A stretch of DNA of 64,000 bases from Clostridium sp. AT4 (GTDB lineage Bacteria; Bacillota; Clostridia; Lachnospirales; Lachnospiraceae), in the NCBI RefSeq assembly GCF_001517625.2, contig NZ_LN999828.1, positions 1,504,303 through 1,568,302 on the forward strand. The letters run 5' to 3'. Numbering within the stretch: position 1 is the first letter of the stretch; each line of letters starts with the position of its first letter. A program made the translations under genes and the position numbers. Below, piece after piece: positions 303 through 18,491 of this stretch. The notes beneath the pieces are model-generated. The model made no database searches and was not told the DNA's origin. It saw only the letters and a list, made by a program, of their open reading frames with translations.

Positions 303-1175
303 ATGCAGAAGATTGGAAGAAATGATCCCTGCTGGTGCGGCAGCGGTAAAAAATACAAAGACTGTCACATGGAGCTGGAAGAAAAGCTGACCCAGTTCCG
401 TCGTCAGGGCGCCATCGTCCCCACCAGAGCCTTATTAAAAACATCCGAACAGATCCACGGCATAAAAGAGAGTGCCCGGATCAATGTAGCAGTTCTTGAT
501 TATGTAGCTGCACATATCGGCCCCGGCATCACTACTGCCCAGATCGATCTGTGGGTCTATGAACAGACCACCCGTTTAGGAGGCATTCCCGCGCCTCTGG
601 GCTATAACGGCTTTCCCAGAAGCGTCTGCACCTCTGTCAATGACCAGGTATGCCACGGCATTCCATCCGAAAATGACATTCTGAAAGAAGGCGATATTAT
701 AAACATAGACGTCTCTACTATCTATAATGGTTATTTTTCTGATTCCTCCCGTATGTTCTGCATCGGAGCGGTTTCTCCGGAGAAAAAACGATTGGTAGAT
801 ACAGCAAAACAATGTCTGGAGATTGGTTTGACAGAAGTACGTCCCTGGGGATTTTTAGGTGATATGGGGCAGGCAATCCATAATTTTGCCAAAGAAAACG
901 GCTGCAGCATTGTCCGTGAAATCGGCGGTCACGGCGTGGGACTGGAATTCCATGAAGAACCCTGGGTAAGCTATGTGTCCAAAAAAGGTACAGAAATGCT
1001 CATGGTTCCCGGAATGTGCTTTACCATTGAACCCATGGTAAATATGGGACGGCCGGATGTATTTGTGGATGCGGACAACGACTGGACGGTATATACGGAT
1101 GACGGACTGCCCTCCGCCCAATGGGAAATCCAGGTGCTGATCACAGAGGATGGATATGAAATACTGGCGTGGTAG
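303..1175 (+). CDS. map: Type I methionine aminopeptidase with N-terminal SEC-C zinc motif
   Basis: This enzyme removes the initiator methionine from nascent proteins in the cytoplasm. Residues 5-22 ([18 protein letters not shown]) form a SEC-C zinc-binding motif, as in type Ic enzymes, which is thought to help ribosome or partner binding. The catalytic pita-bread domain follows from about residue 45. Metal-ligand motifs are visible: the two aspartates in [14 protein letters not shown], the histidine in [13 protein letters not shown], and glutamates in TIEPMV and QWEIQV. The length of 290 aa fits the Ic form. The start follows TAAGGAGG with a suitable spacer. A strong hairpin terminator lies 45 bases after the stop, so the gene appears monocistronic. 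It is a solo copy outside the ribosomal-protein operon, perhaps a second MetAP paralogue of the organism. Confidence 0.93.
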
Positions 1176-1499: not shown

Positions 1500-4400
1500 T
1501 TATTCATTTCCATACAGAGCAACCAGCTTGGATAAGTGCTCAAAGCGCTCCTTAGCCTCCTGCTCGTTGCGTGCGAACAGCTCTGCTGCTCTCTCAGGAT
1601 TCTTCATGGTCAGAGACAGGTAACGAACCTCGCCCTTTAAGAAGTCCTGATAGCCTTCCATCTTAGGAGCCTTGGAATCCAGAGTGAACTTCTTCTCTGC
1701 TGCAGGATTGTAACGGAAGTTATTCCAGTAGCCACACTCTAATGCCAGCTTCTCCTCAGTCTGAGCCTTGTTCATGCCCTTCTTGATACCATGGTTGATA
1801 CATGGAGCATATGCAATGATCAGAGATGGTCCCGGATATGCCTCAGCCTCAGCCAGTGCCTTAACGGTCTGCTGCATGTCGCCGCCCATACAGATCTGTG
1901 CAACGTATACATAGCCGTAGCTCATAGCGATGCCAGCCAGATCCTTCTTCTTGGTCTCCTTACCGCCAGCTGCGAACTGAGCAACTGCACCGGTCTTGGT
2001 AGCCTTGGAAGCCTGTCCGCCTGTATTGGAGTAAACCTCGGTATCGTATACCATGATGTTAATATCCTTACCGGAAGCCAGAACGTGGTCTACGCCGCCG
2101 AAGCCGATATCGTAAGCCCATCCGTCACCGCCGAAGATCCACTGAGACTTCTTAGCCAGGAAATCCTTGTTAGCTACGATGTCCTTGCAAACCGGGCAGT
2201 CAACGCCGGATAATGCAGCAACCAGACGATCGGTTGCAGAACCGTTCAGAGCGCCGATGCCATAGGTATCTAACCACTCCTTGCAGGCTGCCTTGATATC
2301 GTCAGTTGCGTTCTCATTTGTCATAACGCTCTCAACCTTAGCCTTTAAGCCGTCTCTGATTGCGTTCTGAGCCAGTAACATACCATAACCGAACTCAGCA
2401 TTGTCCTCAAACAGGGAGTTATCCCATGCAGGACCCTGTCCCTTAGCGTTCATGGTGTATGGTGTAGAAGGTGAGGAGTTGCCCCAGATAGAGGAACATC
2501 CTGTTGCGTTTGCAATGTACATTCTATCACCAAACAGCTGGGTGATCAGCTTAGCGTAAGGAGTCTCGCCACAGCCTGCACATGCGCCGGAGAACTCAAG
2601 CAGAGGCTGCTTGAACTGGCTTCCCTTAACAGTGTTCTCTTTGAACTTTGCAACAACCTCATCCTTGATGGATACAGTCTGGCCAAAGTCAAAGATAGCC
2701 TGCTCGCTGAGGCTCTCTTCCAGAGGCTTCATCTCCAGAGCCTTGTTGCCCTTCATGCCTGGGCAGACATTTGCACAGGAGCCACATCCTGTACAGTCAA
2801 GTGCAGAGATGGTCATGGCAAACTTGTAGCCTGGCATACCGGTCATATCCTTCATCTTCATATCTGCAGGAGCGTTAGCAGCTTCATCAGCTGTCATAGC
2901 TACCGGACGGATAACAGCGTGAGGACATACATAGGAACAGAAGTTACACTGGATACAGTTGTCAACATTCCATACAGGAACATTTACTGCAATACCACGC
3001 TTCTCGTATGCGGAAGAACCAGATGGTGTAGTACCGTCTACGTAATCCTTGAATGCAGATACAGGCAGGGAGTTTCCTTCCTGAGCGCTTACCTTGGTCT
3101 GAATGTTGTTTACGAAGTCAACAACTTCCTTGCGGCCCTCGGTAACTACCTTATAATCAAGGCCTTCGTCCTCGCACTGAGACCAGCTTGCAGGAACCTC
3201 TACCTTGTGAACGCCCTTAGCGCCGGCATCGATTGCTGCCCAGTTCTTCATAACAACGTCCTCGCCCTTGCGGCCGTAGGTTGCCTTTGCAGCTGCCTTC
3301 ATCAGTTCATTTGCCTTCTCAGCAGGAATGATGCCTGTCAGCTCGAAGAATGCGGACTGAAGGATAGTATTGATACGGGTCGGGCCCATGCCGGTCTCGA
3401 TACCGATCTTAACACCGTCGATGGTGTAGAAGTTGATCTTATGATCAGCGATGAACTTCTTAACCTGTCCTGGCAGATGCTTCTCAAGACCTTCCATATC
3501 CCATGGGCAGTTTAACAGGAAGGTACCGCCGTCAACCAGCTCCTGAACCATGTTGTACTTGCGTACATAAGAAGGATTGTGGCAGGCAACGAAGTTAGCC
3601 TGACGGATCAGGTAGGTAGACTTGATGCGGCTGTGTCCGAAACGCAGATGAGACATGGTAACACCGCCGGACTTCTTGGAGTCGTAATCAAAGTATGCCT
3701 GAGCGTACATATCAGTGTTATCACCGATGATCTTGATGGAGTTCTTGTTAGCACCTACCGTACCGTCAGCGCCAAGACCCCAGAACTTACAGTTGGTTGT
3801 TCCCTCTGGAGTAGTAACTAAAGGAGCGCCAATCTCCAGAGACAGATTTGTAACGTCATCCACGATACCGATCGTGAATGGGCTCTTTGTCTCATTCTCA
3901 AATACTGCTACGATCTGAGCAGGTGTGGTATCCTTGGAACCTAAGCCGTAACGTCCGGTCTGGATCTTGATCTGGTCAAACTTGCTACCCTTAAGAGCTG
4001 CAACAACATCCAGATACAGAGGCTCGCCCATAGCGCCTGGCTCTTTTGTTCTGTCTAATACAGTGATGGTCTTTACAGACTCAGGAATGGTATCGATCAG
4101 TGCCTGTGCGCAGAATGGTCTGTACAGACGAACTTTAACAACACCAACCTTCTTGCCCTGTGCAACCAGGTAATCAATGGTCTCCTCGATGGTATCATTT
4201 ACAGAACCCATAGCAACGATCACATGCTCTGCATCAGCAGCGCCGTAGTAGTTGAACAGCTTGTAATCTGTACCGATCTTAGCGTTAACCTTGTCCATGT
4301 ACTCCTGAACAATTGCAGGAAGTGCATCGTAGTAGGGGTTACATGCCTCTCTTGCCTGGAAGAAAATATCAGGGTTCTGAGCAGAACCTCTCTGGCATGG

Positions 4401-5036
4401 ATGATTTGGATTCAGAGCGTTCTTACGGAATGCTGCAATCGCATCCATATCAGCCATATCCTTCAGATCCTCGTAATCCCAGGTCTCGATCTTCTGGATC
4501 TCGTGAGATGTACGGAAACCGTCAAAGAAGTTGATGAAAGGAACTTTGCCCTTGATTGCTGCCAGATGAGCAACTGGAGTTAAGTCCATAACTTCCTGTA
4601 CGCTGGACTCACACAGCATAGCGCATCCTGTCTGACGGCAGGCATAAACGTCGGAATGGTCACCGAAAATAGATAATGCATGGCTTGCCAGTGCACGGGC
4701 AGATACGTTAAATACGCCTGGCAGCTGCTCGCCTGCGATCTTGTAAAGGTTAGGGATCATCAGTAACAGACCCTGGGAAGCAGTATAGGTGGTGGTCAGC
4801 GCACCTGCTGCCAGAGAACCGTGTACAGCACCTGCTGCACCAGCCTCAGACTGCATCTCTGTAATCTGAACTTCATGACCGAAGATGTTGGTTCTTCCGT
4901 CTGTTGCCCATTCATCTGTAGCTTCTGCCATAGGTGAGGATGGGGTAATCGGATAAATAGCCGCTACATCAGTAAATGCATAGGAAGCATGAGCTGCTGC
5001 ATGGTTACCATCCATGGTTTTCATTTTTCTTGCCAT
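1500..5036 (-). CDS. nifJ: Pyruvate:ferredoxin (flavodoxin) oxidoreductase, single-subunit
   Basis: This enzyme oxidatively decarboxylates pyruvate to acetyl-CoA and CO2 and passes electrons to ferredoxin, the central step of anaerobic fermentation. From the start used here it has 1178 residues, the usual length of the homodimeric form. The N-terminal pyruvate-binding domain holds YPITPSSPMAE. The two-cluster ferredoxin domain has CIQCNFCSYVC at about 691 and CTGCGSCANVC at about 747. The TPP domain has cluster cysteines CAGCGE at about 815 and GDGWAYDIG at about 969. The start is ATG 5036 (MARKMK), preceded by AGGAGG with an 8-base spacer; a TTG seven codons upstream would place that ribosome-binding site inside the reading frame. 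The gene appears monocistronic, with a strong promoter and a 5' leader hairpin. Confidence 0.97.
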   Translation of the reverse strand: MARKMKTMDGNHAAAHASYAFTDVAAIYPITPSSPMAEATDEWATDGRTNIFGHEVQITEMQSEAGAAGAVHGSLAAGALTTTYTASQGLLLMIPNLYKIAGEQLPGVFNVSARALASHALSIFGDHSDVYACRQTGCAMLCESSVQEVMDLTPVAHLAAIKGKVPFINFFDGFRTSHEIQKIETWDYEDLKDMADMDAIAAFRKNALNPNHPCQRGSAQNPDIFFQAREACNPYYDALPAIVQEYMDKVNAKIGTDYKLFNYYGAADAEHVIVAMGSVNDTIEETIDYLVAQGKKVGVVKVRLYRPFCAQALIDTIPESVKTITVLDRTKEPGAMGEPLYLDVVAALKGSKFDQIKIQTGRYGLGSKDTTPAQIVAVFENETKSPFTIGIVDDVTNLSLEIGAPLVTTPEGTTNCKFWGLGADGTVGANKNSIKIIGDNTDMYAQAYFDYDSKKSGGVTMSHLRFGHSRIKSTYLIRQANFVACHNPSYVRKYNMVQELVDGGTFLLNCPWDMEGLEKHLPGQVKKFIADHKINFYTIDGVKIGIETGMGPTRINTILQSAFFELTGIIPAEKANELMKAAAKATYGRKGEDVVMKNWAAIDAGAKGVHKVEVPASWSQCEDEGLDYKVVTEGRKEVVDFVNNIQTKVSAQEGNSLPVSAFKDYVDGTTPSGSSAYEKRGIAVNVPVWNVDNCIQCNFCSYVCPHAVIRPVAMTADEAANAPADMKMKDMTGMPGYKFAMTISALDCTGCGSCANVCPGMKGNKALEMKPLEESLSEQAIFDFGQTVSIKDEVVAKFKENTVKGSQFKQPLLEFSGACAGCGETPYAKLITQLFGDRMYIANATGCSSIWGNSSPSTPYTMNAKGQGPAWDNSLFEDNAEFGYGMLLAQNAIRDGLKAKVESVMTNENATDDIKAACKEWLDTYGIGALNGSATDRLVAALSGVDCPVCKDIVANKDFLAKKSQWIFGGDGWAYDIGFGGVDHVLASGKDINIMVYDTEVYSNTGGQASKATKTGAVAQFAAGGKETKKKDLAGIAMSYGYVYVAQICMGGDMQQTVKALAEAEAYPGPSLIIAYAPCINHGIKKGMNKAQTEEKLALECGYWNNFRYNPAAEKKFTLDSKAPKMEGYQDFLKGEVRYLSLTMKNPERAAELFARNEQEAKERFEHLSKLVALYGNE

Positions 5037-5087
5037 TTTGATTTCCTCCTGCAATTAGTGAAATATGTATATGATAGTATACATGTA

Positions 5088-5322: not shown

Positions 5323-7143
5323 CTATTCCGGCTTTACGGGAACAACCACGGCTCCGGCTCCCGGCCCGCCCTGTGAACCGGAAGGCGCGTCCTCTGACGG
5401 AGCAGGGGCCACAGGTACGGAAGACGGCTCTGTAGAAGCTGATCCCGGCCCTTCTGCCGGAGCAGAGGAAGCCGTACCTGACCCAGGCTGGGACTGGGTC
5501 GTCTCAGCAGGGCCGGTATATCCCTCCGGCATTCCGTCCACTGTCGGCGTAACCGTTGTTGCCTGCGTGGTGGTTTCCTCCGGATTTAATACCACACCGC
5601 TGGTATTGCGGTGGACTACCGGCTTGTGGCCCTTATACGTTGTTTTATGATCCAGTTCTCTGGAAATCTCCTTGCCGTCCTTATAGACAACCTTATAGGT
5701 TTCCCAGCGGCTTCCGGAGCTTCCCTTGCTTGTGGTCTTTTCCACTCCCGGATCCAGAGTCTGATCTTCTACATATTCCGGTTCCGGCACACCAAGGTCT
5801 TCTACCTTTTTAGACTCAAGATCCCAGGTGATGCCGTCCTCCAGAATCGGGATACCATATACAGATACCGTCATCTTCTGATCCGCATAGCTTGCCCGCA
5901 GGCCGATCGCTGTGCTTGAGGTATTGATGAATTTAAAATCAGGCTGCTCATAACTTACAGTAGCATCTCGTCCCGGAGTTACATAATTTGGCTCAAAGGT
6001 ATGGGAACGGCGATAGCTGATCTTTAAGCCCGCTTTAAATACTGCATTGTACAGAGTAGTTGAAACCTGGCATACGCCTCCGCCGATTTCCTGAACAACC
6101 TCACCGTTATTATAGGCAGCCGCACCCTTATAACCCTTAGCCTCTGTACGCTGGCCTACAGTTCCGTTAAAGGAGAACTCATGGCCCGGCTTGATAACGG
6201 TGCCGTTAATAGCTTCTGCCGCCAGACGGACATTCGTATTTCTGTTTTTATTGGATGTGGTATTTGTAGTAAAGGAACCAATGGTCTTATACTGCTCCTT
6301 TGCGCTGGCCGCCGTAATCTCAGGTGCCACCGTGCTGCCGGATGCCTCAATTTTGGCATCAAAGTCCTTTGCAGCCAGAGCCTGTGTGATATCATCGATC
6401 AGCTTTTCCTGATCAATGGCAAAGCCATTCTCCTCTCCCGCGAAAACGAACTTCCCTGTTTCTGCATTAAAGCTGTCGATGGAACCATTTTTTGCCTTCT
6501 TATCCCACTTCGCCGCGCAGGCTGCTGCCTCCGCTTTAATCTGCTCTTCTAATCCGGCCGTATCCAGCGTGTAGCTTTCCTGAGGCTCTCCGCTGTAGAT
6601 CTCATTTAAAAGAGAATCGATTTTTCCGGCCATCAGGTCATTTACCTCATAAACTTCAGAATCATAAGAAACGGTCATGCTCCATGGAAATTCTTTTAAC
6701 AGCACCTCTCTGGCCTGAGATTTGGAAAGGCCGGTGATGGAAATGCCGTCTACGGACACCTCTTTTTTCATCTCGGTTTCTGTCACTGCCTCTGTTGTTG
6801 CCTGCACTCCCGTCTCATCAGAGTTCTTTCCATTTAACGCCATAGCAATGCAGGTAATCACTACGATCAGGATCACGCCTCCAATGGCAATCCATTTATA
6901 ATCCGGCCCCTTTCTTCTGTGGCGGCGGCTGTTCCGCCTTACATTCTGCATGGCGTTCATCCTTCCTGCCTGGCCGGAGCGGTAAGAGGAACTGCTGCGT
7001 GAGCCGCCGTGTCCTGTATTTCTGGAAGAGGTACCTCTGGATGATGCTCTCCCGGAAGCACTACGTCCTCTGTCTGCGCCCTTTGCCCGGCTTCTGCCCG
7101 GCGAAGCGCTGCGGTTCCTGCTGTTGTTTTCTAACTGATTCAT
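5323..7143 (-). CDS. Membrane-anchored VanW/G5 domain cell-wall protein
   Basis: A 606-residue surface protein of unknown exact activity. Residues 1-80 are very basic and Ser/Gly/Arg-rich (cytoplasmic), 83-103 form one membrane segment (WIAIGGVILIVVITCIAMAL), and the rest is extracellular. Residues of about 130-290 resemble the peptidoglycan-binding repeat found before VanW domains. The VanW domain spans about 300-420, with FSFNGTVGQRT and GGGVCQVSTTLYNA as its hallmarks. A G5-like domain (about 450-525) and a Pro/Ser/Thr-rich tail follow. VanW proteins occur in some glycopeptide-resistance clusters, but this architecture is common in resistance-free Clostridia and is no evidence of resistance. 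Start chosen at ATG 7143 because AAGGTG lies 8 bases upstream; an ATG at 7176 has no ribosome-binding site. Confidence 0.85.
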   Translation of the reverse strand: MNQLENNSRNRSASPGRSRAKGADRGRSASGRASSRGTSSRNTGHGGSRSSSSYRSGQAGRMNAMQNVRRNSRRHRRKGPDYKWIAIGGVILIVVITCIAMALNGKNSDETGVQATTEAVTETEMKKEVSVDGISITGLSKSQAREVLLKEFPWSMTVSYDSEVYEVNDLMAGKIDSLLNEIYSGEPQESYTLDTAGLEEQIKAEAAACAAKWDKKAKNGSIDSFNAETGKFVFAGEENGFAIDQEKLIDDITQALAAKDFDAKIEASGSTVAPEITAASAKEQYKTIGSFTTNTTSNKNRNTNVRLAAEAINGTVIKPGHEFSFNGTVGQRTEAKGYKGAAAYNNGEVVQEIGGGVCQVSTTLYNAVFKAGLKISYRRSHTFEPNYVTPGRDATVSYEQPDFKFINTSSTAIGLRASYADQKMTVSVYGIPILEDGITWDLESKKVEDLGVPEPEYVEDQTLDPGVEKTTSKGSSGSRWETYKVVYKDGKEISRELDHKTTYKGHKPVVHRNTSGVVLNPEETTTQATTVTPTVDGMPEGYTGPAETTQSQPGSGTASSAPAEGPGSASTEPSSVPVAPAPSEDAPSGSQGGPGAGAVVVPVKPE

Positions 7144-7190
7144 TTTTCTCACACCTTGTTCAAAATACTTTTGCATTAATTACAGCTTGT

Positions 7191-7196
7191 AGTATA
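7191..7196 (-). promoter_or_regulatory. Putative extended -10 promoter of the VanW-family gene
   Basis: The minus strand reads TGCTATACT, an extended -10 element, about 47 bases before the chosen start codon. The -35 region is poor. The intergenic stretch 7200-7313 is AT-rich and holds nothing else that I can identify. Confidence 0.4.
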
Positions 7197-7313
7197 GCAT
7201 ACTTTATTTAAAATGGAACCGCTTTTTATATTTTTTTCCTTTGATTTTTTCTATTTGTGAATTTACTGTTACTTATTATAAATGAAATATTATGGAAGTA
7301 TTACCAAAGTATT

Positions 7314-10300
7314 TCACTGCTCTTTTTTAGAGGCTGTGACCTTTGAAAGCTGCAAAATGATCTCGCTGAAATATCTGGGCGGAACCTGCTCCAGAAGAAG
7401 CGCCTTTTTATCATCTGCCTCATCATAGACATAGCTTCCCCTCTCTATGGTTCCGGCCGGATAGAAACGGACGTCTTCTATTGTTACCTCCTCGTTCTGT
7501 CCTCCGATATAGGTTCCTGAAAAATGAAGCTCCGCTCCCAGCTTCCCGTCTTCCCGGTAAAAGGTATAAAAACAGCCCGCATCCTGAACAGAACCCGTAT
7601 ACCAGCCAAGAGACTGCATTTTTCCGATGAGAGACAGATCGTTAAGGATTACTCCTTCAAAGCGCTCCACTGCCTTCTGCCCCACTTCTTCTTCGGAAAT
7701 GAGGTACGCAGTGCGGTCCAGCTGTTCCACAGGCTGAATGATTTCATAATCCTCCAGCTGCTCCTTCCATGCGTCCCTCTCTTCCTTTGAAAGCTCAATG
7801 GGATGGATCAGGCCGATTACTGCATCCTCAGGCAGCTCCAGCTCCTCTTCATCCACCGTATTAAAGGAGCCGTCCTCCATATACCGGAAGCTGCCTGTAA
7901 GTGTTTCTTCCTTATATATACCCCAGATCAGGCCAATGGCAAAGGGGTGCATCACCGGCTTTTTCGTAAACAGCTCCACCCAGTCCTCCTTCTTCCACAT
8001 ACGTCCGGATGACAGGGCCAGCTCCAGCCTCTGCTTCTGGCTGGCAGCCACGGTTTTTAACTGCTTTTTCATAGCCTTAAACTCCTCGTAAGCCCTTGCC
8101 GCCTTATCTTCCTCATCCCGCTTGCCCGGAGCAGGCATATTTTTAAGCTTTCTGCCCTCCTGGTCCCGAACCTGAATTTCAAGCTCCGGGGTAATGGACA
8201 CGGTAAAGGATCTTGCTCCATAGTCAAAAACACGCTCCATCCGCTCATTAAAACCGAGATCCGGCACAATCCGGTCTGAAAGCTCCTCTCTAGTAATCCC
8301 AAGCTGTCCGGCGGCAAATTCCAGCGCTTTGGCAGCCGCAGCCTTCACCTGACGGAACTTGAATTTTGACGCAATGCCGTCTACCTTTAAAAGCGCCTCT
8401 GAAACAGGGCTTAAGGCCAGTGCGTTGACCGCCTCACAGGCCATGGCGCCTCTGGCATTTGCCGGCCATTCCTGGATCTGACGGTACAGCTTTTTAACCA
8501 TCAGATCGCCTCCGTGGATGGACGCTGCATAAAGAACCCATTTCTTCTTTGCTTCTGCGCCCTGCTCCATAAAACGGTCAAAAAGTTCATTTACATAAAG
8601 AGAAAACTCCTCTTTCTTAAGGTCTCCGGCCAGAAATTCAGCGTCCTTATTTACGCCCGGACTGGTTCCTGCTCCGGCATAGCACAGGAGAATGGCCTGA
8701 AGGTATTCAACGGACGCCTCCTCCCCGTTTTCAAAATGAACCGCCGGGAAAGGAGTCTGAAAGGCCCAGGACAGCGTGCGGCTCTTTCCTCCTTTATGAA
8801 GGGCTTTTACCAGATCCTCCCTCTTTAAAACGCCGGAGGGGCTTTCATTTTCTTCCTCCTTTACCCCCAGCACCTGGGTTAAAAGCCGGCGCACCTTGGC
8901 ATTTTTTTCCTTTTCAAGAGCTGCCTCAAGAGCCGGGCGGTCGGAAACGTCATTCCATGCAGCCAAAACATATACCGCAGCTTCCCTGGGGCCTGCCTTT
9001 TTATCGCTTAAAAGAACAAGTATATCATCCTTCCAGTCCTTCTGCTCCTCTAAAATTTTTAAAAGCTCCTCCCGGACGGATTTAGCCGTATCCTTTGCAT
9101 AGGAAAGAATTTCTTTTTTGTACTCTTTTGCCATCAGAGCCATGGTCATAAGCCCCAGACGGCGGCCTTCTGCCTCAGACTCACGAAATACTTCCATCAC
9201 TGCTTCCGGATTGGCTCTGAGCTTATACAGAAATACTCTTCTGGCTGCCAGCTCAAAGCAGCGTTCCTTATCCGAATCAAGGTATAAGGATTTTACATTC
9301 AGGATAAAGGTCTTTAACAGATGCGCCTCATCCATTCCCGCTTCTTCCATGTCTTTAAAAAATCCTGCAAAGGCTTCTTCCTTCGGCTGGTAGAACGGAT
9401 TTTTTCCCGAGGACATAAAGTACCCCTCCTGCCGAAGAAAGGTACAGGCCTGGCAACGGTTAAAAAATTCCCGGTCCTCATCCTTAGCAGGAAAGCCGTC
9501 CAGCAGATTACGCAGTCTATAGCCCCTGTAAAAATGACTGTTTTTTGCCATCTGTTCCTCATATGGATACAGAGCGCTGAAAGGAACCCGTCCATACAGG
9601 TAATCAATTAACGTCTGGGTTTCCGGGCCTTTTTCCTCTGTCAGTACCTTTATAACCGCATCTCTTCTGCGCATGCCGGCAGAGGACTGAAGGGTTTTAT
9701 AAAGCTTAGGATCTGCGCTGCGAACCACATTCATCATGTAATTCATCTGCTCCAGATCTTCCTCCTTTAGGCATTCCAGATACAGCTCCTTATTCTTTTT
9801 AAGCTGGCTGCAAAGAATCTTCCCCTGCTTTCTGATGGCTGCCCAGGAAATGTAGGACTTGCTGTCCAGATGGAACAGCTCATCAAAGCTTCCTCCCCGT
9901 TCGTGAAGATCCCTGCGGAAATCCAGCTGCTCCATAATAGGAAGGCAGCAGTTCATATCAGAAGCCAGATACAGATCCACTGTGCGCATCAGACAGGGGG
10001 ACAGGGCCATATTCATAAAAGCGGTTCCGCATATGAGCCATGTAATAAGATTATTCTGGGCCAGAGGACCTGCCAGAGAACGGATCTCATCCGTCATGGA
10101 TCCTTCCTTTAGCGCACGGGCGATCTGAAACCGGCTCGCCTTGGAAACAGAGGACGGCAGCGCGTCTTCAATGGTGTTGCATACAATCGTTTCATATTGC
10201 CTCATAAGCTCCGCGTCTTCACCGGAAAGCCCGTTTCCATTTCCAAACGCTGAAACAAGCCGGTTCAAAATACCCTTTGCACCCGCAGCCCCCTCTTTGG

Positions 10301-10862
10301 GTTCTTCCAGCTTTTTATCCGGGTATTTCCGGAGAAAATAGAGGGAAAGAAGGATCAGCCTGCCATTAGCCATATCCCCGATGCAATACTTCATGGCTGA
10401 CAGCAGGTATTCCGGAGTCTTAGTCTGTTTTATCATCTGATCCATCAGATAGCTGAAACGTGTATCATTGTTTCTGCCCGCGATCTCTGCCACAACCGAA
10501 AGCCACTCTTCCGGCTTCAGTCCCCAGAAGTCCTTCCCCTCTCTCATAAAGCTGTAACGCCATGCATAATTCCCCCGTTCCAGCGCGCCGCAGGTTGACT
10601 GTCCCAGTGCAAAAAGCACCCGGAGCATTTTTTTTGCTTCCTCTGGATGCCGGTCGCAGAAATGGCTAAACAGCGCTGCCGCAGCCTCCAGCTGCGTCTC
10701 GGCAAGCTGGTAAAAGTCCCTTGCCGTTAAACCCTGTAAGGCTTCCTCTCCCCGTTCGCCTGATACATAGGAAAAAATCTTCTCCCGTTCCTGTTCAGAC
10801 AGACCGATTTTCTCCAGAGTTTCCATTATTTTATCCCCATATGTTCTCTTTGGCTGTATCAT
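7314..10862 (-). CDS. Giant DUF4132 protein of MolR/YehI type
   Basis: Last gene of the five-gene MoxR/VWA operon. The 1182-residue protein is soluble, mostly alpha-helical and rich in Lys/Glu, with HEAT-like helical pairs in the middle (for example about 600-700). The C-terminal 200-250 residues match the DUF4132 pattern, with LIGKMQSLGWYTGSVQDAG and a following beta-rich segment ending near YIGGQNEEVTIEDVRFYP. E. coli MolR and YehI are the familiar relatives; their activity is not known. The start is ATG 10862, preceded by AAAGGAGG; an in-frame ATG at 10826 is a weaker alternative and the upstream ATG at 10937 lies inside the preceding gene. It starts 43 bases after the SWIM-protein stop, so it is probably co-transcribed. 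A scaffold or effector role is inference only. Confidence 0.75.
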   Translation of the reverse strand: MIQPKRTYGDKIMETLEKIGLSEQEREKIFSYVSGERGEEALQGLTARDFYQLAETQLEAAAALFSHFCDRHPEEAKKMLRVLFALGQSTCGALERGNYAWRYSFMREGKDFWGLKPEEWLSVVAEIAGRNNDTRFSYLMDQMIKQTKTPEYLLSAMKYCIGDMANGRLILLSLYFLRKYPDKKLEEPKEGAAGAKGILNRLVSAFGNGNGLSGEDAELMRQYETIVCNTIEDALPSSVSKASRFQIARALKEGSMTDEIRSLAGPLAQNNLITWLICGTAFMNMALSPCLMRTVDLYLASDMNCCLPIMEQLDFRRDLHERGGSFDELFHLDSKSYISWAAIRKQGKILCSQLKKNKELYLECLKEEDLEQMNYMMNVVRSADPKLYKTLQSSAGMRRRDAVIKVLTEEKGPETQTLIDYLYGRVPFSALYPYEEQMAKNSHFYRGYRLRNLLDGFPAKDEDREFFNRCQACTFLRQEGYFMSSGKNPFYQPKEEAFAGFFKDMEEAGMDEAHLLKTFILNVKSLYLDSDKERCFELAARRVFLYKLRANPEAVMEVFRESEAEGRRLGLMTMALMAKEYKKEILSYAKDTAKSVREELLKILEEQKDWKDDILVLLSDKKAGPREAAVYVLAAWNDVSDRPALEAALEKEKNAKVRRLLTQVLGVKEEENESPSGVLKREDLVKALHKGGKSRTLSWAFQTPFPAVHFENGEEASVEYLQAILLCYAGAGTSPGVNKDAEFLAGDLKKEEFSLYVNELFDRFMEQGAEAKKKWVLYAASIHGGDLMVKKLYRQIQEWPANARGAMACEAVNALALSPVSEALLKVDGIASKFKFRQVKAAAAKALEFAAGQLGITREELSDRIVPDLGFNERMERVFDYGARSFTVSITPELEIQVRDQEGRKLKNMPAPGKRDEEDKAARAYEEFKAMKKQLKTVAASQKQRLELALSSGRMWKKEDWVELFTKKPVMHPFAIGLIWGIYKEETLTGSFRYMEDGSFNTVDEEELELPEDAVIGLIHPIELSKEERDAWKEQLEDYEIIQPVEQLDRTAYLISEEEVGQKAVERFEGVILNDLSLIGKMQSLGWYTGSVQDAGCFYTFYREDGKLGAELHFSGTYIGGQNEEVTIEDVRFYPAGTIERGSYVYDEADDKKALLLEQVPPRYFSEIILQLSKVTASKKEQ

Positions 10863-10905
10863 ACGCCTTCTCCTCCTTTTTACCGGATTTTTGCTGTATC
10901 GTCTA

Positions 10906-12975
10906 TCACTGTGTATAGTAGGCTTCTGCCAGATCAAACTCCGTCTTTCGTCTGGCCAGCCACAGGTATTCCGCTATATTTACATAAATTTCCAGTTCTG
11001 CCCCATGAACGGGATGCAGGCTGTGACGGCAGCCTTCAATCTCCCGGCACAGCTTCCCAAGCTGTATGCCAAGAAAGGCAAGCCCGCTCTCTCCTGCACG
11101 TTCCGCCCATTGCCGAAGCATCCCAAGGGTGCTGTCATGAACGGCGTCAAACCCGCTCTGGTACAGATCCTCGATCTGCTGGCTGACCTCTTCCAGAAGG
11201 CGGTACATCTGCTCCATGGCATTGATTTTAAGTACCCGTTCCCGTTCCTGCGGTGAATCTGAAACCCATTCATCTGCAAACGCTTCCCGTTTGCTGGCTT
11301 CCTGCCCCCACTGAAAAATCTCCAGAGGATGAAGGATCATTTTCCCATCTTTTAAGTACAGCTTGCCTGCAATGGCAGGAATGGGAATTTCTCCCTTTTC
11401 CACCTGATCTGCAATCCGCTCCAGATAGCGGATATTCGCGTCCTCCCGCCTGCTGTATGCCATCTCTGTCAAAAGTTCTTTCCCATTGGAATCAAAAACA
11501 GCCATGGAAAATTTCTGCTCTGCCTGAGAAAAACGGGCCGCATCCCAGGCTGCAGCCTGAACGCACACGATCCGTAGCGTCTCCTCCTCCCGTTTCAACC
11601 AGCTGTTTTTCAAAAAATACTGTTCTTTAAAAAGCGCTCCAAAGTCTTTATAAAGCCATTTTCCCGCGTCCTCCGGGCAGAAGCTGTGTTTTCCTGTTAT
11701 CATGCCTTTTGTATCCTGACTGGATGATAGACGGCCTGTTTTTCCGGCTTTTGCCTGTTTTAAGCAGACCTCTGTTCCGGCCAGTTCCTCTAAGGATACA
11801 TTTAATCCCCAGGGAGCGGCTGCCTTTTCCATCCGCCCCCGTCTTCCCCGGCTGTCATAGTACACCGGACGGGCGCTGGTATATGTATACCATTTCTTTG
11901 TATTCTTTTCCAGAAAATATACCGTTTCTCCCTGATAACCGTTTCTGCTCTGAAAGGCCTCCGCCGTAATGCCGATCAGTTCCATATCTCCTGCCGGTTC
12001 ATAGTCCATGTGAAAGACTCCTCCCAGGTTCCTAAGCTCCCCGTCTGTTTTCACCCGGCTCAAACGGCAGATCTGTTCATAAAGGCGGGCGCTTTCATCC
12101 ATCAGCCCTGCGGCATTTACAGAGGATGAACGGCTAAAATACGCTTCATATCCATTTTGAAGGCTCCGGAACGCATCTTCAAAGGAGGCCAGTCCTTCAT
12201 TGTGGCTGATCACTGCCAGCCGTTCTAAGGTATCGGCACTCTGACTGGCAGTGCGCGAAAGGCCGGAAGCTAATATATCCTCTAATGCAGCCTTCATCTC
12301 ACCGGCCTTTTCCCGTATCCGGTTCAGATCCGCTTTCGGTTCTTCCTCTTCCTTTTCAAATTCCTCCAAACGCAGAGTTCCCGCCTCCATACGGCACCAC
12401 AAAGCCGCAGCAGCCCTGTGAGCGCAAAATTCCTTCTTTTTGCAGGTACAGGAGGAATATTCCAGCGGAAGCAGAAATTTTACCTGCAACTCTGAATCCG
12501 GAAGCTCCACCAAAACCGTGCTGGAACGAGCGATATCTGCCCTTTTCCCCGCCCGGATCTGCCCCAGTACCTCCCCAAGCTTCTTCATCCCTAATGCCCG
12601 TATGATCTTCTGGTTCCCAATCTCCAGAACGGCCTGCCAAAGCTCCTCTGAGGGCAGAGCTTCGGATTTTTCTTTCTTCTCCTCTTTTATCCCGCCTTCT
12701 CCCGCTTCATACATATCCTTAAGAACCAAAATAGCCTGCACAATATGCCTGCATATGGATCTGGACGGACAGCTGCACCGGCTTTCCGCCAGCACCGGAG
12801 CGATCAGAAGCTCTTCCTCTCCAAGCTTTACATTTATGCCCCGATCCCCTGTATCCAAAATCTCACAGGGAGTAGTTTCTCTGTCCTTATGGGCCCGCTT
12901 TACCGTACCCTTATTGCTGAGACCGGCCAGATATTCGTCATCCGCACCGGCCAGTATGGTTTTCCAATCTGTCAT
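10906..12975 (-). CDS. SWIM zinc-finger protein, YehQ-like
   Basis: Fourth gene of the MoxR/VWA operon; 689 residues from ATG 12975. That start makes an ATGA overlap with the stop of the VWA gene, a classic sign of translational coupling (an ATG at 12996 is also possible). Two SWIM-like CxC...CxH clusters are visible: CSCPSRSICRH near residue 67 and CTCKKKEFCAH near residue 170. SWIM domains bind DNA or protein through one zinc. The remainder, about 500 residues, is helical and not recognised. Homologues in E. coli (yehQ) and many bacteria lie beside the same ATPase and VWA protein. The double SWIM arrangement suggests substrate or nucleic-acid recognition for the ATPase module, but that is inference. 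Confidence 0.78.
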   Translation of the reverse strand: MTDWKTILAGADDEYLAGLSNKGTVKRAHKDRETTPCEILDTGDRGINVKLGEEELLIAPVLAESRCSCPSRSICRHIVQAILVLKDMYEAGEGGIKEEKKEKSEALPSEELWQAVLEIGNQKIIRALGMKKLGEVLGQIRAGKRADIARSSTVLVELPDSELQVKFLLPLEYSSCTCKKKEFCAHRAAAALWCRMEAGTLRLEEFEKEEEEPKADLNRIREKAGEMKAALEDILASGLSRTASQSADTLERLAVISHNEGLASFEDAFRSLQNGYEAYFSRSSSVNAAGLMDESARLYEQICRLSRVKTDGELRNLGGVFHMDYEPAGDMELIGITAEAFQSRNGYQGETVYFLEKNTKKWYTYTSARPVYYDSRGRRGRMEKAAAPWGLNVSLEELAGTEVCLKQAKAGKTGRLSSSQDTKGMITGKHSFCPEDAGKWLYKDFGALFKEQYFLKNSWLKREEETLRIVCVQAAAWDAARFSQAEQKFSMAVFDSNGKELLTEMAYSRREDANIRYLERIADQVEKGEIPIPAIAGKLYLKDGKMILHPLEIFQWGQEASKREAFADEWVSDSPQERERVLKINAMEQMYRLLEEVSQQIEDLYQSGFDAVHDSTLGMLRQWAERAGESGLAFLGIQLGKLCREIEGCRHSLHPVHGAELEIYVNIAEYLWLARRKTEFDLAEAYYTQ

Positions 12976-14099
12976 GCTATGATTTTCCCCATCCATTCTG
13001 CCAGCTGCTCCGGAGTCATAGCCCCTACATGAGCCCCCAGCCGCGCCATCTTTTCTGCTGCATTTCTGTCATATACCGGATCTGCCTGACGATCCAGAGC
13101 TGTAAGAGCTACCAGTCTGGCCCCGCTTTCCACAATATCCTTCACAGCGCCGTACATATTTGCCTGGCTTACACCCTCATAAAGATCGGATACCAGCACC
13201 ACAATGGTTCTGGCCGGAGCTTCGATCAGGGTTTCACAATACCTTAAAGCTCCTCCGATGTCCGTGCCGCCGCCCAGCTGGATACTCATAAGCGTTTCGA
13301 CCGGGTCTTCCACATATCCGCTTAAATCCACCACACTGGTATCAAAAATAACCAGCTTCACATCCATCACCGGAAGCCTGGCAAAAATCCCCGCCATCAC
13401 GGCACTGTGGATCACGCTGTCCATCATGGAGCCGCTTTCATCAACACAGATGATTACATTCCATGGGCTGTGGCGTTTCAGCCTGCCGTAAAAATAGACC
13501 TGATCCAGCAGAAGCTGCCTCTTTTCCACATCATAATGCTTTAAATTCATCCGAATGGTCTTCTTTATATCCAGATTCCGCATAGAGCGCACCGGACTGC
13601 CCGAAAAACGGTCCATGCGGCCTATAAGCGCAGGCCGTATCTCCTGCTCCAGCTCCTTTGTAAGCTCTTCTGCGACCTTTTTTACCACCTCACGGGCCAT
13701 TTCAAGAACCGGCCCCTTCATCATGGATTTCAGTTCCAGCACCATTTTTAACAGCTCCCTGTTGGGCTCCATGCGCTTTAATACCTCAGGATCCGTTAAA
13801 AGCTCCGTCATATTGTACTTTTCCAGAGCATGGCGCTCCATGATCTCTGCGGTTGACTTGGGAAACAGGCGGCGCAGTTTCTCAATCCAGGAGGGTACGG
13901 TAAGGCTGGAGGGATCGCCGCTTCCCCCGCGGTCCTTTCGGATCTCCTGTTCTTCCCCATACTCTCTGGAATAAAGGAACTCCAGCACCTGATCCATTTC
14001 ACCATAGGGCAGACTGCCCTCTGAAAAATACACGGGTCCTTCGGCATACCGGCCCAGAGCCAGACGCCAGCGGTTCAGTATCTCTTTTTCATCTCTCAT
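12972..14099 (-). CDS. VWA-domain protein with intact MIDAS, YehP-like
   Basis: Third gene of the operon; 375 residues. The N-terminal half is helical; the C-terminal half is a von Willebrand A domain with a full metal-ion-dependent adhesion site: DESGSM near residue 222, the threonine in GGGTDIGGAL and the aspartate in VLVSDLYEG. Soluble VWA proteins next to MoxR ATPases usually act as adaptors that bring a metal-bridged ligand to the ATPase, as in CoxD/CoxE or RavA/ViaA. There is no signal peptide or membrane segment, so it acts in the cytoplasm. The ATG at 14099 overlaps the preceding gene by 11 bases and is preceded by GGAGGGA. Confidence 0.85.
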   Translation of the reverse strand: MRDEKEILNRWRLALGRYAEGPVYFSEGSLPYGEMDQVLEFLYSREYGEEQEIRKDRGGSGDPSSLTVPSWIEKLRRLFPKSTAEIMERHALEKYNMTELLTDPEVLKRMEPNRELLKMVLELKSMMKGPVLEMAREVVKKVAEELTKELEQEIRPALIGRMDRFSGSPVRSMRNLDIKKTIRMNLKHYDVEKRQLLLDQVYFYGRLKRHSPWNVIICVDESGSMMDSVIHSAVMAGIFARLPVMDVKLVIFDTSVVDLSGYVEDPVETLMSIQLGGGTDIGGALRYCETLIEAPARTIVVLVSDLYEGVSQANMYGAVKDIVESGARLVALTALDRQADPVYDRNAAEKMARLGAHVGAMTPEQLAEWMGKIIA

Positions 14100-16455
14100 C
14101 CGGCTCTCCCTCCATGGATAGTTTTACAAAGTTTTCCAGTTCTTTCCCATAGGCAAACACACCCGGAAACACTGGCGACGTTTCTTTTTCCAGACTTTTT
14201 TCCCGGTGAAGCCCGGCCGCCAGATTTCCAACCCTCTTTAACTCTCCCGGAGTAAATGCGCCAAAGGCCAGACGAAGCTGGGGCAGAAGTTCTAAAAATT
14301 CCCCATCCTCCACCTGGGAGAAAAACGCATCCAGCATGGGAATCATGCCCTGCCCCATAAAAATGAGATCTCTAGCTGTGAAAAAAAGGCCTCTGAGAAA
14401 AACAGCCGTTTTAAGAAGCTGCTCTCTGGTTCCGGTAATGTATCCCCGGCCCGCAGCCTCCGCTTCATACGCCTCTTCCCTGCCGCAGCCAAACAGGATC
14501 CCGTGAATACATCCCTCCAGGCCCGGATGGAGCTTTCCATCCTCCCGCATCCGCTCTAAAGCCTCAAAATACGCCTCCCTGCTGCAGCCTGTCTGCCCTC
14601 CGGTCTGATAGAGAAGCTTCATGGCCTTCATGGCGCTTTCCAGATCCTCATCCTTAATCCGGGCCATGGAGGGAAGAAGGATCACCAGCTTTTCATAACA
14701 GCCTGCGATCAGCCATTCAAAAGGAAGATTTACCCGGTAAAGCCCCTGAAGCTCTTTCAGCATCCGCAGGCGTGACAATGCCTCTGCCACTGCAAAAAAC
14801 CGGGTATCCTCCAGAATGATCCGGCTGACCGCTTCATAAACAGGCTCCATCTCCTGATCCAGTCCCATTTCAAACACAGAGGTAAGCAAAAGGGCGGCTT
14901 TCCCGGCATCACTTTCCGTCTTAAGTTCCTCTCTTACAAGGCTTGTCACTGCCTCCTCAATCACTGCCCCCCGGACCGATACGTCCATAAGGGCTGCTGC
15001 TACGGAGGGTCTGAAGCGGCAGATCCAGGTTTCCCGCATCATATTCCGGTCTCTTCCCAGACGCAGATCCGGTCCCTTTGTCTTTCTGGCAAACTCTGTC
15101 TGAAGAAATACCATCCTGTTTAAAAATTTGCTCTCTTCCCTGTGTTTTTCGTTGGAAAATGGGGTGAGTACCCGCTTGATCTCCATAGCAGACCGGCTTC
15201 GGATGCCGAACCTGGCGCACTGCCTTTCAAAATCCTGAATCAGAGGCGGTACCTCAGCCTGCTTGCAGAGCTTTCCCAACCGGGTTCCTGTCATATGCTT
15301 TTTGAGAATCCGAAGTGGCTTATCCGATGATAAGGAGCACTCACCCTTAATAAAGGAGGAAAGCACCGCATCCTTTAATTCCCAGGCTCCGGGCTCTCTC
15401 TTATCCCGAAGGGATGCAAGCCCTCTTGCCTGATCCAGAGCACAGATCTCATCATAGGTGGTGGGAACGCCGTCCTTTTTTCTCCCGTCCCTTCCGGTCT
15501 CAATCAGGAAATCAAGGACTGCTCCTTCATACACTCCCTTCTGCGGCTGTTCCTTCTCTTTATTTTCTTCCAGTTTTTCCCATATTCTCTGGTAAAAGCC
15601 GGGAAAAGGCATACCGCTGGCATAACCGCCCCAGGCGTCTGTCTCCTCCATGGAATAGGGCATCAGGAAAATGCCCTCCTCCCCCTTTTTTGCCTGTTCC
15701 TTCCATTCTTTAAGCTTTGTCTGTTCCCTGAGATACTCTGCCAGCGCCGGAGTATGAAATCCGCCTGTGATTCCAAGCACCAGCCCTTCTTCTCCCACCT
15801 CGGCCGCCTTTTTCTTAAGCCTTCCTGCCATAAACTGCTCTCTGGCCTCGCAGCCCTCTGAACAGATCTGCTCCGACGGGGTATCCTCCCGGATCATCCG
15901 GCAGTAGCCAAGAAGCATTTCAAACCAGGTTTCGCTCTCCATGCACAGGCCCTGGATTTCAAAGTACTTCTCCCAAAATTCATCAAAGGAGCGCAGACCG
16001 GTTTTCTGGCAGAGCTTCTGAAAAAAACGGCCGTCCGACAGCAGCCGGTCCCCTGTAAGGCCTTCGCTGCGGCTCTTTTCACAGGCAGCCAGAATCTCCC
16101 TGTAAGGCAGATCCATAAAATTACCTGGGATTCCCAGATCTCTGCACGTCCTCAGGGCTGCCAGCTCCGGCGAATAATCCAGAAAGGGATAATAACACTT
16201 ATAGTATTCTTCACCGCCGCCAATCTCTCCTGCCTGATCCTGATAGGAATAATATACGGCAAAGGGCGCCTTGGTCTCCTCATGGATCATGGCCGAGATC
16301 AGGGAGCCTGCGTTTTCAGGCCCTTCGATCAGAACCGCATCAGGCTTTAATTTTTCTATCATCCGCACAATATGCCAGGCGCAGGCCGGGCTGTGATGGC
16401 GCACGGGAAGAAGGATTATTTCAGCCATTTCCTTGCGTCGTAGTATCTGCTCCAT
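14089..16455 (-). CDS. DUF5682-family protein, YehM-like
   Basis: Second gene of the operon; 788 residues with no membrane segment. The N-terminus LLPVRHHSPACAWH followed by LKPDAVLIEGPEN is the hallmark of the DUF5682 family, whose fold recalls the TraB/EreA-like group (conserved RHH and EGP near the start, and GITGGFHTPAL near residue 230). Those conserved His and Glu residues suggest a metal-dependent active site, but no reaction is established. The rest is helical. It overlaps the MoxR gene by 40 bases with ATG 16455 (GAGGG upstream); ATG 16428 is an alternative but has its AAGGA too close. The E. coli counterpart is yehM. Confidence 0.8.
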   Translation of the reverse strand: MEQILRRKEMAEIILLPVRHHSPACAWHIVRMIEKLKPDAVLIEGPENAGSLISAMIHEETKAPFAVYYSYQDQAGEIGGGEEYYKCYYPFLDYSPELAALRTCRDLGIPGNFMDLPYREILAACEKSRSEGLTGDRLLSDGRFFQKLCQKTGLRSFDEFWEKYFEIQGLCMESETWFEMLLGYCRMIREDTPSEQICSEGCEAREQFMAGRLKKKAAEVGEEGLVLGITGGFHTPALAEYLREQTKLKEWKEQAKKGEEGIFLMPYSMEETDAWGGYASGMPFPGFYQRIWEKLEENKEKEQPQKGVYEGAVLDFLIETGRDGRKKDGVPTTYDEICALDQARGLASLRDKREPGAWELKDAVLSSFIKGECSLSSDKPLRILKKHMTGTRLGKLCKQAEVPPLIQDFERQCARFGIRSRSAMEIKRVLTPFSNEKHREESKFLNRMVFLQTEFARKTKGPDLRLGRDRNMMRETWICRFRPSVAAALMDVSVRGAVIEEAVTSLVREELKTESDAGKAALLLTSVFEMGLDQEMEPVYEAVSRIILEDTRFFAVAEALSRLRMLKELQGLYRVNLPFEWLIAGCYEKLVILLPSMARIKDEDLESAMKAMKLLYQTGGQTGCSREAYFEALERMREDGKLHPGLEGCIHGILFGCGREEAYEAEAAGRGYITGTREQLLKTAVFLRGLFFTARDLIFMGQGMIPMLDAFFSQVEDGEFLELLPQLRLAFGAFTPGELKRVGNLAAGLHREKSLEKETSPVFPGVFAYGKELENFVKLSMEGEPDER

Positions 16456-17531
16456 ATTCCGCCCTCTCTGCTGCTCTTGTCACGGATCACTGTTCCGAAA
16501 TAGGCCTTTACCTTTTCCAGATCATCCCTGTTTTCCTTTGAAATTGCTCCGGTAAGATTTTGTACCAGGCAGTCAATATCCATGGTTTTATTTCCATAGT
16601 AATAACCTGAAATCATGGTCTGATAGTACACAGATACAGCCTCTGCCGTACTCATAACCGCTCCCGGCCGGTCAATCCGGTGTCCCAGGGAAGATACTCC
16701 CTCCCGCAGTTCATGGTAGGTAGAAGCCAGCAGCTCTGCCGCACTCTCATCCAGCTCCATTTCCATATGGCTTTCTTTTGCCAGGCTTTCCACCTCATTT
16801 AGAATGATCTGCTTTTCCATGGAAACCTCACGCACCGGCTGAACCGTTTCAAAGTTAAAACGGCGTTTTAAGGCGCTGCTCATCTCATTTACGCCCTTAT
16901 CCCGTGTATTGGCCGTTCCGATTACATTAAATCCGGGAGCGGCAAAGAGAAAACCCTCATCGCCCAGCTCCGGAATATTTAAAAGCTTATCGCTCAAAAC
17001 GCTGATCAGGCTGTCCTGAATCTCTGCCGGAGTACGGGTGATCTCCTCAAAGCGGGTAAGGATTCCCTTTTCCATGCCCGTATACAAAGGCGACGGCACC
17101 AGAGCCTCGCGCACCGGCCCCTTTGCCAGCAGCAGCGCATAATTCCATGAATACTTGATCATATCTTCTGTGGTTCCGGCTGTTCCCTGGATCGTATTGG
17201 TGCTGACGCCGCTGATAGCCGCAGAGAGAAGCTCCGACAGCATGGTTTTGGCCGTTCCCGGCTCTCCCACCAGCATCAGCCCCCTGTTTCCCGCCAGCGT
17301 AACGATGCTGCGCTCCACCAGGGCATCATTTCCAAAATATTTCTTCCGGATCCGGCACGCGCCGCCCGAATAGGGAATCTCCTTTGAACTTCCCAGAATA
17401 AAGGTGCGCACAGCCTTTGGTGAAAGCTGCCAGTTTAGGGGTCTGGGGCCTGTATCATTTTCTTTTAATGCCTTTAGTTCCTCTACATACCGGATTTCCA
17501 CCGGCGGTTTAATCCACTGCTGCTCCGTCAT
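16416..17531 (-). CDS. MoxR-type AAA+ ATPase, YehL-like
   Basis: First gene of the five-gene operon. This 371-residue AAA+ protein has Walker A GEPGTAKT at 89-96, a Walker B region ending in RFEEITR near 165, sensor-1 NVIGTANTRD near 215 and an arginine-rich FNFE segment after it, all typical of the MoxR branch. MoxR ATPases act as chaperones that remodel a partner, often through a VWA adaptor, and the neighbouring genes provide such an adaptor. The start is ATG 17531 with AAAGGAGG eight bases upstream; the longer in-frame ATG at 17654 would extend into the divergent gene. A promoter with an extended -10 lies just upstream, and all five genes overlap or are within 45 bases. Confidence 0.88.
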   Translation of the reverse strand: MTEQQWIKPPVEIRYVEELKALKENDTGPRPLNWQLSPKAVRTFILGSSKEIPYSGGACRIRKKYFGNDALVERSIVTLAGNRGLMLVGEPGTAKTMLSELLSAAISGVSTNTIQGTAGTTEDMIKYSWNYALLLAKGPVREALVPSPLYTGMEKGILTRFEEITRTPAEIQDSLISVLSDKLLNIPELGDEGFLFAAPGFNVIGTANTRDKGVNEMSSALKRRFNFETVQPVREVSMEKQIILNEVESLAKESHMEMELDESAAELLASTYHELREGVSSLGHRIDRPGAVMSTAEAVSVYYQTMISGYYYGNKTMDIDCLVQNLTGAISKENRDDLEKVKAYFGTVIRDKSSREGGIWSRYYDARKWLK

Positions 17532-17567
17532 CTGTATGTCCTCCTTTATATCAGGAAAATATATATC

Positions 17568-17573
17568 AGTATA
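17568..17573 (-). promoter_or_regulatory. Promoter of the MoxR/VWA operon (extended -10)
   Basis: The minus strand reads TTTTGCTATACTG, giving an extended -10 (TGCTATACT), 37 bases before the ATPase start codon. The -35 region (TAGCAC at 17 bases) is poor. The 96-base intergenic region also holds the start signals of the divergent PHP gene. Confidence 0.5.
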
Positions 17574-17627
17574 GCAAAATTCCGTCTGCTGTGCTACTAT
17601 ATATACAAAAAAAGGAAGTGAATATCC

Positions 17628-18491
17628 ATGGGTTTTGTTGATCTGCATACACACTCTGATGCATCAGACGGCAGCTTCACTCCGGCCCAGCTTGTGCATC
17701 TGGCAAAGGAGGCCGGTCTTTGCGCCATCGCCCTTACCGACCATGATACAACTGCCGGGATTGTCGATGCCGTTGATGCCGGAAAAGAGCTGGGAGTAGA
17801 GGTTATCCCCGGCATTGAAGTATCCGGTAATTACGAAGGCCATGAAATCCATATTTTAGGACTTTTTATCAATCCGGACGATCCGGAGCTTAAAGCATTT
17901 CTCAAAGACATGAGAAGCCGCCGGAACCGGCGCAATGAGGAGATGTTCCGCCGTCTGGCAGCAGACGGAATCTCATTTACAGATGAAGAGCTGTTCGGTT
18001 CCAATCCCCAGACCGTTATCACAAGAGCCCATGTGGCCCGTGCCATGGTTCAGAAGGGGTTCTGTTCTTCTGCGAATCAGGCCTTTAAAAAATATCTGGA
18101 ATACGGTGGCCGCTACTGCCCGCCCAAGGAGGAGACCGAGCCGGAATCCATTGTAAAAATCCTGCTTAAAAACGGGGCTTTTGCAGCTTTGGCCCATCCC
18201 TTTTTATACAAGCTCGGAGACAAACAGACGAAAGCCCTCATTACCCGGCTGGCTGAGGCCGGAATGCAGGGATTAGAGGTCTACCATTCTTCTAATTACC
18301 CTCTGGAAAGCCGCAAGCTACAGAAAATGGCTGCCGGCCTTAAGCTTCTTCCTACAGGAGGCTCTGATTTCCACGGCTCATGCAAGCCGGATATTTCAAT
18401 CGGCACAGGCCGGGGCGGACTGAGGGTATCAGAGCTTCTTTTAGAGGATATCCGGCGCTGTGTCTGCCCCAAATCCCAAAAGGAAACCTGA
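17628..18491 (+). CDS. PHP-domain phosphoesterase (RNase AM/YciV family)
   Basis: A 287-residue PHP hydrolase. The four metal-binding motifs are present: DLHTHSDASDG at 4-14, LTDHD near 38, GIEVSG/GHEIHILG in the centre, AHPFLYK and GGSDFHG at the end. E. coli YciV (RNase AM) of this family trims 5'-3' RNA ends and dephosphorylates 3',5'-bisphosphonucleotides; the same activity is plausible but not shown here. It reads divergently from the MoxR operon, with AAGGAAG before ATG 17628, and the next small gene follows 32 bases after its stop, so the two are probably co-transcribed. Confidence 0.85.
   Translation: MGFVDLHTHSDASDGSFTPAQLVHLAKEAGLCAIALTDHDTTAGIVDAVDAGKELGVEVIPGIEVSGNYEGHEIHILGLFINPDDPELKAFLKDMRSRRNRRNEEMFRRLAADGISFTDEELFGSNPQTVITRAHVARAMVQKGFCSSANQAFKKYLEYGGRYCPPKEETEPESIVKILLKNGAFAALAHPFLYKLGDKQTKALITRLAEAGMQGLEVYHSSNYPLESRKLQKMAAGLKLLPTGGSDFHGSCKPDISIGTGRGGLRVSELLLEDIRRCVCPKSQKET

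Follow-up and report, generated by a model that had tools for sequence, protein, structure and literature searches.

A probable five-gene system combining a MoxR–VWA pair with a TraB/TIKI-like DUF5682 protein in Clostridium sp. AT4

The stretch analyzed here, hereafter the window, comprises 64,000 bp of the gut bacterium Clostridium sp. AT4 (contig NZ_LN999828.1, positions 1,504,303–1,568,302) and harbors an operon of five minus-strand genes, 17531–7314, as seen in its list of open reading frames (ORFs) and in the Pfam scan. Judging by sequence comparisons, the five genes very likely form one system, and its DUF5682 protein is strongly suggested to begin with a domain of the TraB/TIKI fold. 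The genes and their conserved overlap are as follows (lengths in amino acids, aa):

16416–17531, minus strand: MoxR AAA+ ATPase, YehL-like, 371 aa from ATG, AAA_5 in Pfam
14089–16455, minus strand: DUF5682 protein, 788 aa, with a predicted TraB/TIKI-like N-terminal domain (about residues 1–240) and a helical C-terminal part
12972–14099, minus strand: VWA_CoxE protein with a metal ion-dependent adhesion site (MIDAS), 375 aa, VWA_CoxE in Pfam
10906–12975, minus strand: double-SWIM zinc protein, 689 aa, SWIM in Pfam, with the ATG at 12996 as an alternative start
7314–10862, minus strand: HEAT-repeat-like protein with a C-terminal DUF4132 domain, 1182 aa
16416–16455, minus strand: conserved MoxR/DUF5682 gene overlap of 40 bases, exactly 40 in 73 of 78 relative loci

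The coordinates reproduce the spacing given in the original prediction, which had been made from the sequence alone (overlaps of 40, 11 and 4 bases and a 43-base gap), and the ORFs, Pfam matches and motif positions agree with its five families and its complete VWA MIDAS. The start of DUF5682 at 16455 agrees with an N-terminus that is conserved in relatives. An alternative GTG start of MoxR lies 123 bases upstream of the ATG and would make the gene overrun the neighboring PHP gene.

A scan of 84,980 species genomes with the window MoxR resulted in 344 relatives, the best 80 loci of which, mostly from Lachnospiraceae, were kept, with downstream genes counted only in loci whose contig extends far enough. 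In such loci MoxR is followed downstream by DUF5682 in 75 of 76 cases, by VWA in 67 of 69, by SWIM in 58 of 63 and by DUF4132 in 47 of 58, and all 50 loci showing the four downstream genes have them in the same order. Both ORFs of the MoxR/DUF5682 pair were called in 78 of the 80 loci, and because the exact length of the overlap recurs in 73 of them it is not due to chance; it would fit translational coupling. Of the five exceptions, two overlap by 157 and 37 bases and three are separated by 19, 3866 and 4547 bases. DUF5682 and VWA are even fused into one 1255-aa protein in Streptomyces atratus. Upstream of this fusion (L132:2866–8651) there are a 288-aa protein annotated as DUF4132 and a 1,640-aa protein annotated as DNA-binding, the latter with no Pfam family at E 0.05. 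Some loci contain extra ORFs between the operon genes, the first residues of which look mutually unlike.

Across lineages the constant core is MoxR–DUF5682–VWA, around which the positions of SWIM and of the large protein vary. The window-type layout has VWA followed by SWIM and then DUF4132; DUF4132 lies ahead of SWIM in two other Bacillota loci (L109, L110) and ahead of MoxR in E. coli, Iodobacter, Proteus and Nonomuraea. The order SWIM, large protein, MoxR, DUF5682, VWA is found in Rhizobium, Deinococcus, Methylosinus, Fusobacterium and further Bacillota. There the large protein is DUF5691 in the scanned Rhizobium and Deinococcus cases and is so annotated in Methylosinus, it gives a HEAT_2 signal below the cut-off in Bacillota loci L107 and L119, and the Fusobacterium protein showed no clear family in the Pfam scan. 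The Methylosinus VWA gene (L133:12214–13382) is split into several frames. Trees of MoxR, DUF5682 and VWA, built for 48 of 89 loci having all three proteins, show the same deep split, and in each of them the SWIM-upstream loci form one clan with a support of 1.0, which also takes in L113 and L131, whose SWIM lay out of view. With matching clans in three trees, it follows that DUF5682 has kept its motor whereas the scaffold has been exchanged. Median identity to the window over 46 type-1 loci is 80% for MoxR, 66% for VWA, 48% for DUF5682, 39% for DUF4132 and 36% for SWIM, which are rough figures since only the best local segment enters each; the identity ranks of MoxR, DUF5682, VWA and SWIM correlate (Spearman 0.66–0.86), while that of DUF4132 does not (0.11–0.24).

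The assignment of the DUF5682 N-terminal domain to the TraB/TIKI fold is strongly suggested by profile comparison and highly probable. Local hhalign of DUF5682 with TraB gave 74.4%, against at most 1.2% for the controls (four partner families, the reversed profile and 20 column shuffles), and the alpha/beta core of the TIKI fold was found in DUF5682. The profile alignments pair H11, E35, R196 and H225 of DUF5682 with H19, E45, R221 and H249 of TraB, respectively, and all 101 of 101 sequences keep these four signature residues unchanged. Two of them are contained in the RHH and EGP motifs which had hinted at a metal-dependent enzyme in the original prediction; an enzyme-like look of the N-terminus is supported. 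DUF5682 thus resembles TraB, PrgY and GumN of the TIKI superfamily in fold and H/E/R/H pattern, from which it differs by mostly having P in place of G in the first GxxH motif (P in 80/101 sequences including that of the window, G in 19/101), by a long helical C-terminal part and by a score below Pfam's TraB model. As no match over the TraB cut-off (PF01963) was obtained in the Pfam scan for the window DUF5682, nor in the window's own genome, the protein is to be considered a distant relative and not a member of the Pfam family. Foldseek with DUF5682 gave no match at E≤0.001, and sequence searches of the PDB found no convincing relative. RRSP, an endopeptidase of the TIKI superfamily, has a 2His/2Glu site with a nearby basic residue (PMC6254334, in excerpt). 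The chances that DUF5682 is an active hydrolase may be put at about even.

The window MoxR matches AAA_5 in the Pfam scan (E 9e-33) and is 46% identical to E. coli YehL over 364 aligned columns, in a comparison with YehL as the only MoxR subfamily; its neighbors are of the yehM–yehP–yehQ type, as expected for the YehL subfamily, and the Walker A motif G-x4-[AG]-K-[ST] is kept in 104 of 104 relatives of 340–450 aa. The VWA protein matches VWA_CoxE (E 6.4e-50) with its MIDAS formed by DESGS at residue 220, GGT at 277 and SD at 304, and DxSxS is kept in all 96 VWA relatives over 250 aa. The SWIM family matches the fourth protein in two stretches (E 5e-07), and two CxC...CxH motifs are located at residues 74 and 183, as numbered in its 696-aa form; among SWIM relatives over 250 aa, at least one motif is present in 85/85 and two in 67/85. 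In many relatives (L032, L036, L042 and others), a small ORF of its own encodes what corresponds to the final 100-odd residues of the SWIM protein.

The DUF4132 protein is strongly suggested to be a HEAT scaffold. Its residues 1 to about 680 gave HEAT-type matches only, with HEAT_2 below the Pfam cut-off, and the four Foldseek matches at E≤0.001 are all solenoids; for residues 1 to about 680 an enzymatic nature was therefore rejected. The proposal that DUF4132 is the effector was not supported, as the protein is HEAT-repeat-like, is replaced by DUF5691 or another large protein in the second lineage and belongs to a domain family with longer members existing without DUF5682. The co-occurrence of the two families is loose, DUF5682 being present in 7 of 15 family genomes with DUF4132 and a DUF4132 match being absent from 10 of 17 family genomes with DUF5682. 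A DUF4132 protein of Deinococcus radiodurans, DRA0166, rises on DdrO depletion (PMC8533742, in excerpt). The operon stretch fetched from genome G311 (L120) is without DUF4132, and two operon-type DUF4132 proteins of 1211 and 1218 aa are located elsewhere in that genome (L174, L175). In 5 of 12 DUF4132 neighborhoods (L164, L165, L166, L168, L170) a protein of about 140 aa (138–182), with no Pfam family over the cut-off, adjoins the DUF4132 giant or its pieces, and a similar small protein was seen by eye in L172; perhaps the two constitute a separate two-gene module.

The operon lies between a PHP and a VanW gene, with the following surroundings:

7177–7313, no strand: left flank of the insertion, old VanW–PHP intergenic sequence, by-eye resemblance to the empty site of congeners
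17532–17627, no strand: right flank, short intergenic stretch ahead of the divergent PHP gene, candidate operon promoter region
17628–18491: PHP gene, upstream of and divergent from the operon (Pfam scan)
5323–7176: VanW-G5 gene, downstream of the operon (Pfam scan)
1500–5054: pyruvate:ferredoxin oxidoreductase, an iron-sulphur enzyme, separated from the operon by VanW

In 12 of the 17 genus genomes PHP and VanW are direct neighbors, 154–206 bases apart, with no operon there, and a thirteenth (G456) has broken PHP and VanW pieces about 256 bases apart. Only the window genome and G417 carry the operon between the two genes, G450 and G458 being not judgeable, and the old intergenic sequence is still readable by eye to the left of the operon when compared with the 154–206-base stretch of the 12 congeners. 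The operon was thus inserted as a block into the PHP–VanW gap. No transposase or integrase was seen among the genes at its edges in the ORFs and Pfam scan of the window. Together with the conserved order, the overlap, the fusion and the tree split, this insertion upholds the single-system idea of the original prediction. Three of the empty-site genomes possess a type-1 operon elsewhere (G448, G462 and, on a short contig, G455), and a fourth, G461, has a type-2 operon. The type-2 operon of two congeners (L238:3980–12168, L239:1767–10014) occupies the same place with the same neighbors on both sides, which by eye we take to be spoIIIA-like and then asp23/nusB/xseA-like genes.

Matches to DUF5682 above the cut-off, the window's own genome included at each level, come from 5 of 299 genomes of the phylum, a number that rises to 8 at E≤0.001. 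The family has 17 such genomes among 150 and the genus 8 among 17. In E. coli, a match covering at least 80% of yehM is present in 5166 of 5426 genomes and one covering at least 80% of yehL in 5160 of 5426, yehM being chromosomal in 5289 of 5291 places. Two pattern scans of IMG/VR yielded no relative; the one phage-labelled record is marked UNVERIFIED and its genes look bacterial by eye.

The yeh neighborhood had already been noted for the YehL subfamily. The E. coli yehI–yehL–yehM–yehP–yehQ region contains the same five families, with a yehL–M–P–Q order identical to that of the window and nearly full-length identities of 46% for MoxR, 43% for VWA and 24% for DUF5682; SWIM is alignable over 191 aa only and DUF4132 only over about 400 aa of the C-terminal part. 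E. coli differs in having two DUF4132 genes, one with a WGR domain, upstream of yehL and none directly after yehQ, so the match with E. coli proposed originally stands for the set of families and fails for their order. YehL is one of seven MoxR subfamilies, and another system with a MoxR ATPase and a VWA partner, RavA–ViaA, differs in that no DUF5682, SWIM or HEAT partner is named for it in the excerpt of the same source (PMC3893208). The MoxR-vWA ternary systems of Kaur et al. 2020, with VMAP, iSTAND, FtsH or a beta-propeller, likewise combine MoxR, a CoxE-like VWA and a third component. The operon differs from them by its TraB/TIKI-like third component and by a MoxR below the bpMoxR cut-off (19.8 vs 27 bits), and none of their third components was found in the Pfam scan of the five proteins. 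This system appears in none of the four MoxR-vWA subsystem headings, and SWIM, DUF4132, DUF5682 and yehL are absent from the main text (PMC7159879). A literature search found no mention of DUF5682, DUF5691, PF18934, DUF5724 or PF13569, and DUF4132 was mentioned in three papers. Judging by titles and abstract openings, the eight papers with at least two yeh or molR names and the 40 listed out of 693 with one or more are reports on genomes or use the same letters for something unrelated.

Taken jointly, these features could be read as a YehL-type MoxR–VWA motor gating a hydrolase of TraB/TIKI fold on a HEAT scaffold, with SWIM for recognition, a reading which we hold tentatively, at somewhat less than an even chance. 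The MoxR ring would dock through the Mg-dependent VWA adaptor and use ATP to remodel or open DUF5682 or a client bound to it; the SWIM protein and the HEAT scaffold would recruit the target, and only then would DUF5682 perform hydrolysis of the TraB/TIKI type, probably of a peptide bond, making the whole an ATP-gated, scaffolded hydrolase. The hydrolase activity, the gating by MoxR–VWA and the scaffold and recognition roles are what we infer. A role in regulated processing or quality control is possible. More doubtful is the view that bacteria have here an ATP-gated protease or hydrolase machine outside the Clp, Lon and FtsH types, in which a MoxR–VWA motor switches a TraB/TIKI catalytic domain, HEAT scaffolds can be exchanged and a SWIM protein serves for recognition, the whole being near-core in E. 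coli and mobile in other lineages. The genes yehL and yehM occur in about 95% of complete E. coli genomes, and the literature searches turned up no function for them; the TraB/TIKI-like assignment matters in naming four testable DUF5682 residues and in tying the MoxR–VWA motor to a putative hydrolase, by which the question becomes testable in K-12.

An unlikely rival is a cofactor-insertion chaperone like CoxD–CoxE or Mg-chelatase, in which DUF5682 would bind a metal or cofactor rather than cut. The VWA protein is indeed of the CoxE type, and ChaN is a haem binder. MoxR–MoxC/L, CoxD–CoxE and Mg-chelatase are listed as metal-insertion systems by Kaur et al. (PMC7159879, in excerpt), and ChaN has been grouped with the TIKI superfamily (PMC6254334, in excerpt). 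However, the scanned window neighbors include no obvious client except pyruvate:ferredoxin oxidoreductase, which is not adjacent, no cofactor-enzyme family is prominent among the 25 flanking-protein families listed out of 109, and the nearest match of DUF5682 among the profiles compared is TraB, one Ere sequence giving none. It is still less probable that the machine is a pure assembly chaperone maturing one complex, with DUF5682 keeping the TraB/TIKI fold only to bind: RavA–ViaA, proposed for complex I (PMC3893208, in excerpt), and PMT, which retains the TIKI fold without the catalytic set (PMC6254334, in excerpt), offer precedents, but the four signature residues are invariant in 101/101 sequences, unlike those of a degenerated fold.

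Just as improbable is a role in phage defense or conflict, in which the operon would resemble the MoxR-vWA ternary systems and DUF5682 would be their third component; the original prediction had cited conflict or quality control for those related systems. What speaks for it is the patchy occurrence (17/150 family and 8/17 genus genomes) and the movement as a block, to which may be added the faster divergence of DUF5682, SWIM and DUF4132 compared to MoxR, a restriction-modification-like cluster beside the operon on an Iodobacter plasmid, and single flanking proteins matching PADLOC models such as RTasHel and GajB, names taken from the 25 models listed out of 57. Against it, the five proteins correspond to no PADLOC 2.0.0 family (best E 0.035), most genes in the flanks are ordinary, no hypervariable effector was seen, the subsystem headings of Kaur et al. 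omit the system, and yehM is near-core and chromosomal in E. coli (5166/5426 genomes, 5289/5291 places). The 104 flanking proteins, taken as the nearest one or two ORFs of at least 180 aa per locus from L028–L086 with most later loci left out, matched 57 PADLOC models at 1e-10, none of them in more than three proteins, a count made without a control set. For ten window neighbors, the PADLOC matches were limited to the SEC-C motif of an M24 peptidase and a weak one in the PHP protein.

The operon promoter is probably located in 17532–17627, a scan of this right flank for the sigma-70 consensus having given no site. The M24 peptidase, carrying an N-terminal SEC-C zinc motif in Pfam, is encoded at window positions 303–1175, and a T-box leader is located on the minus strand at 38323–38559 (130.9 bits).
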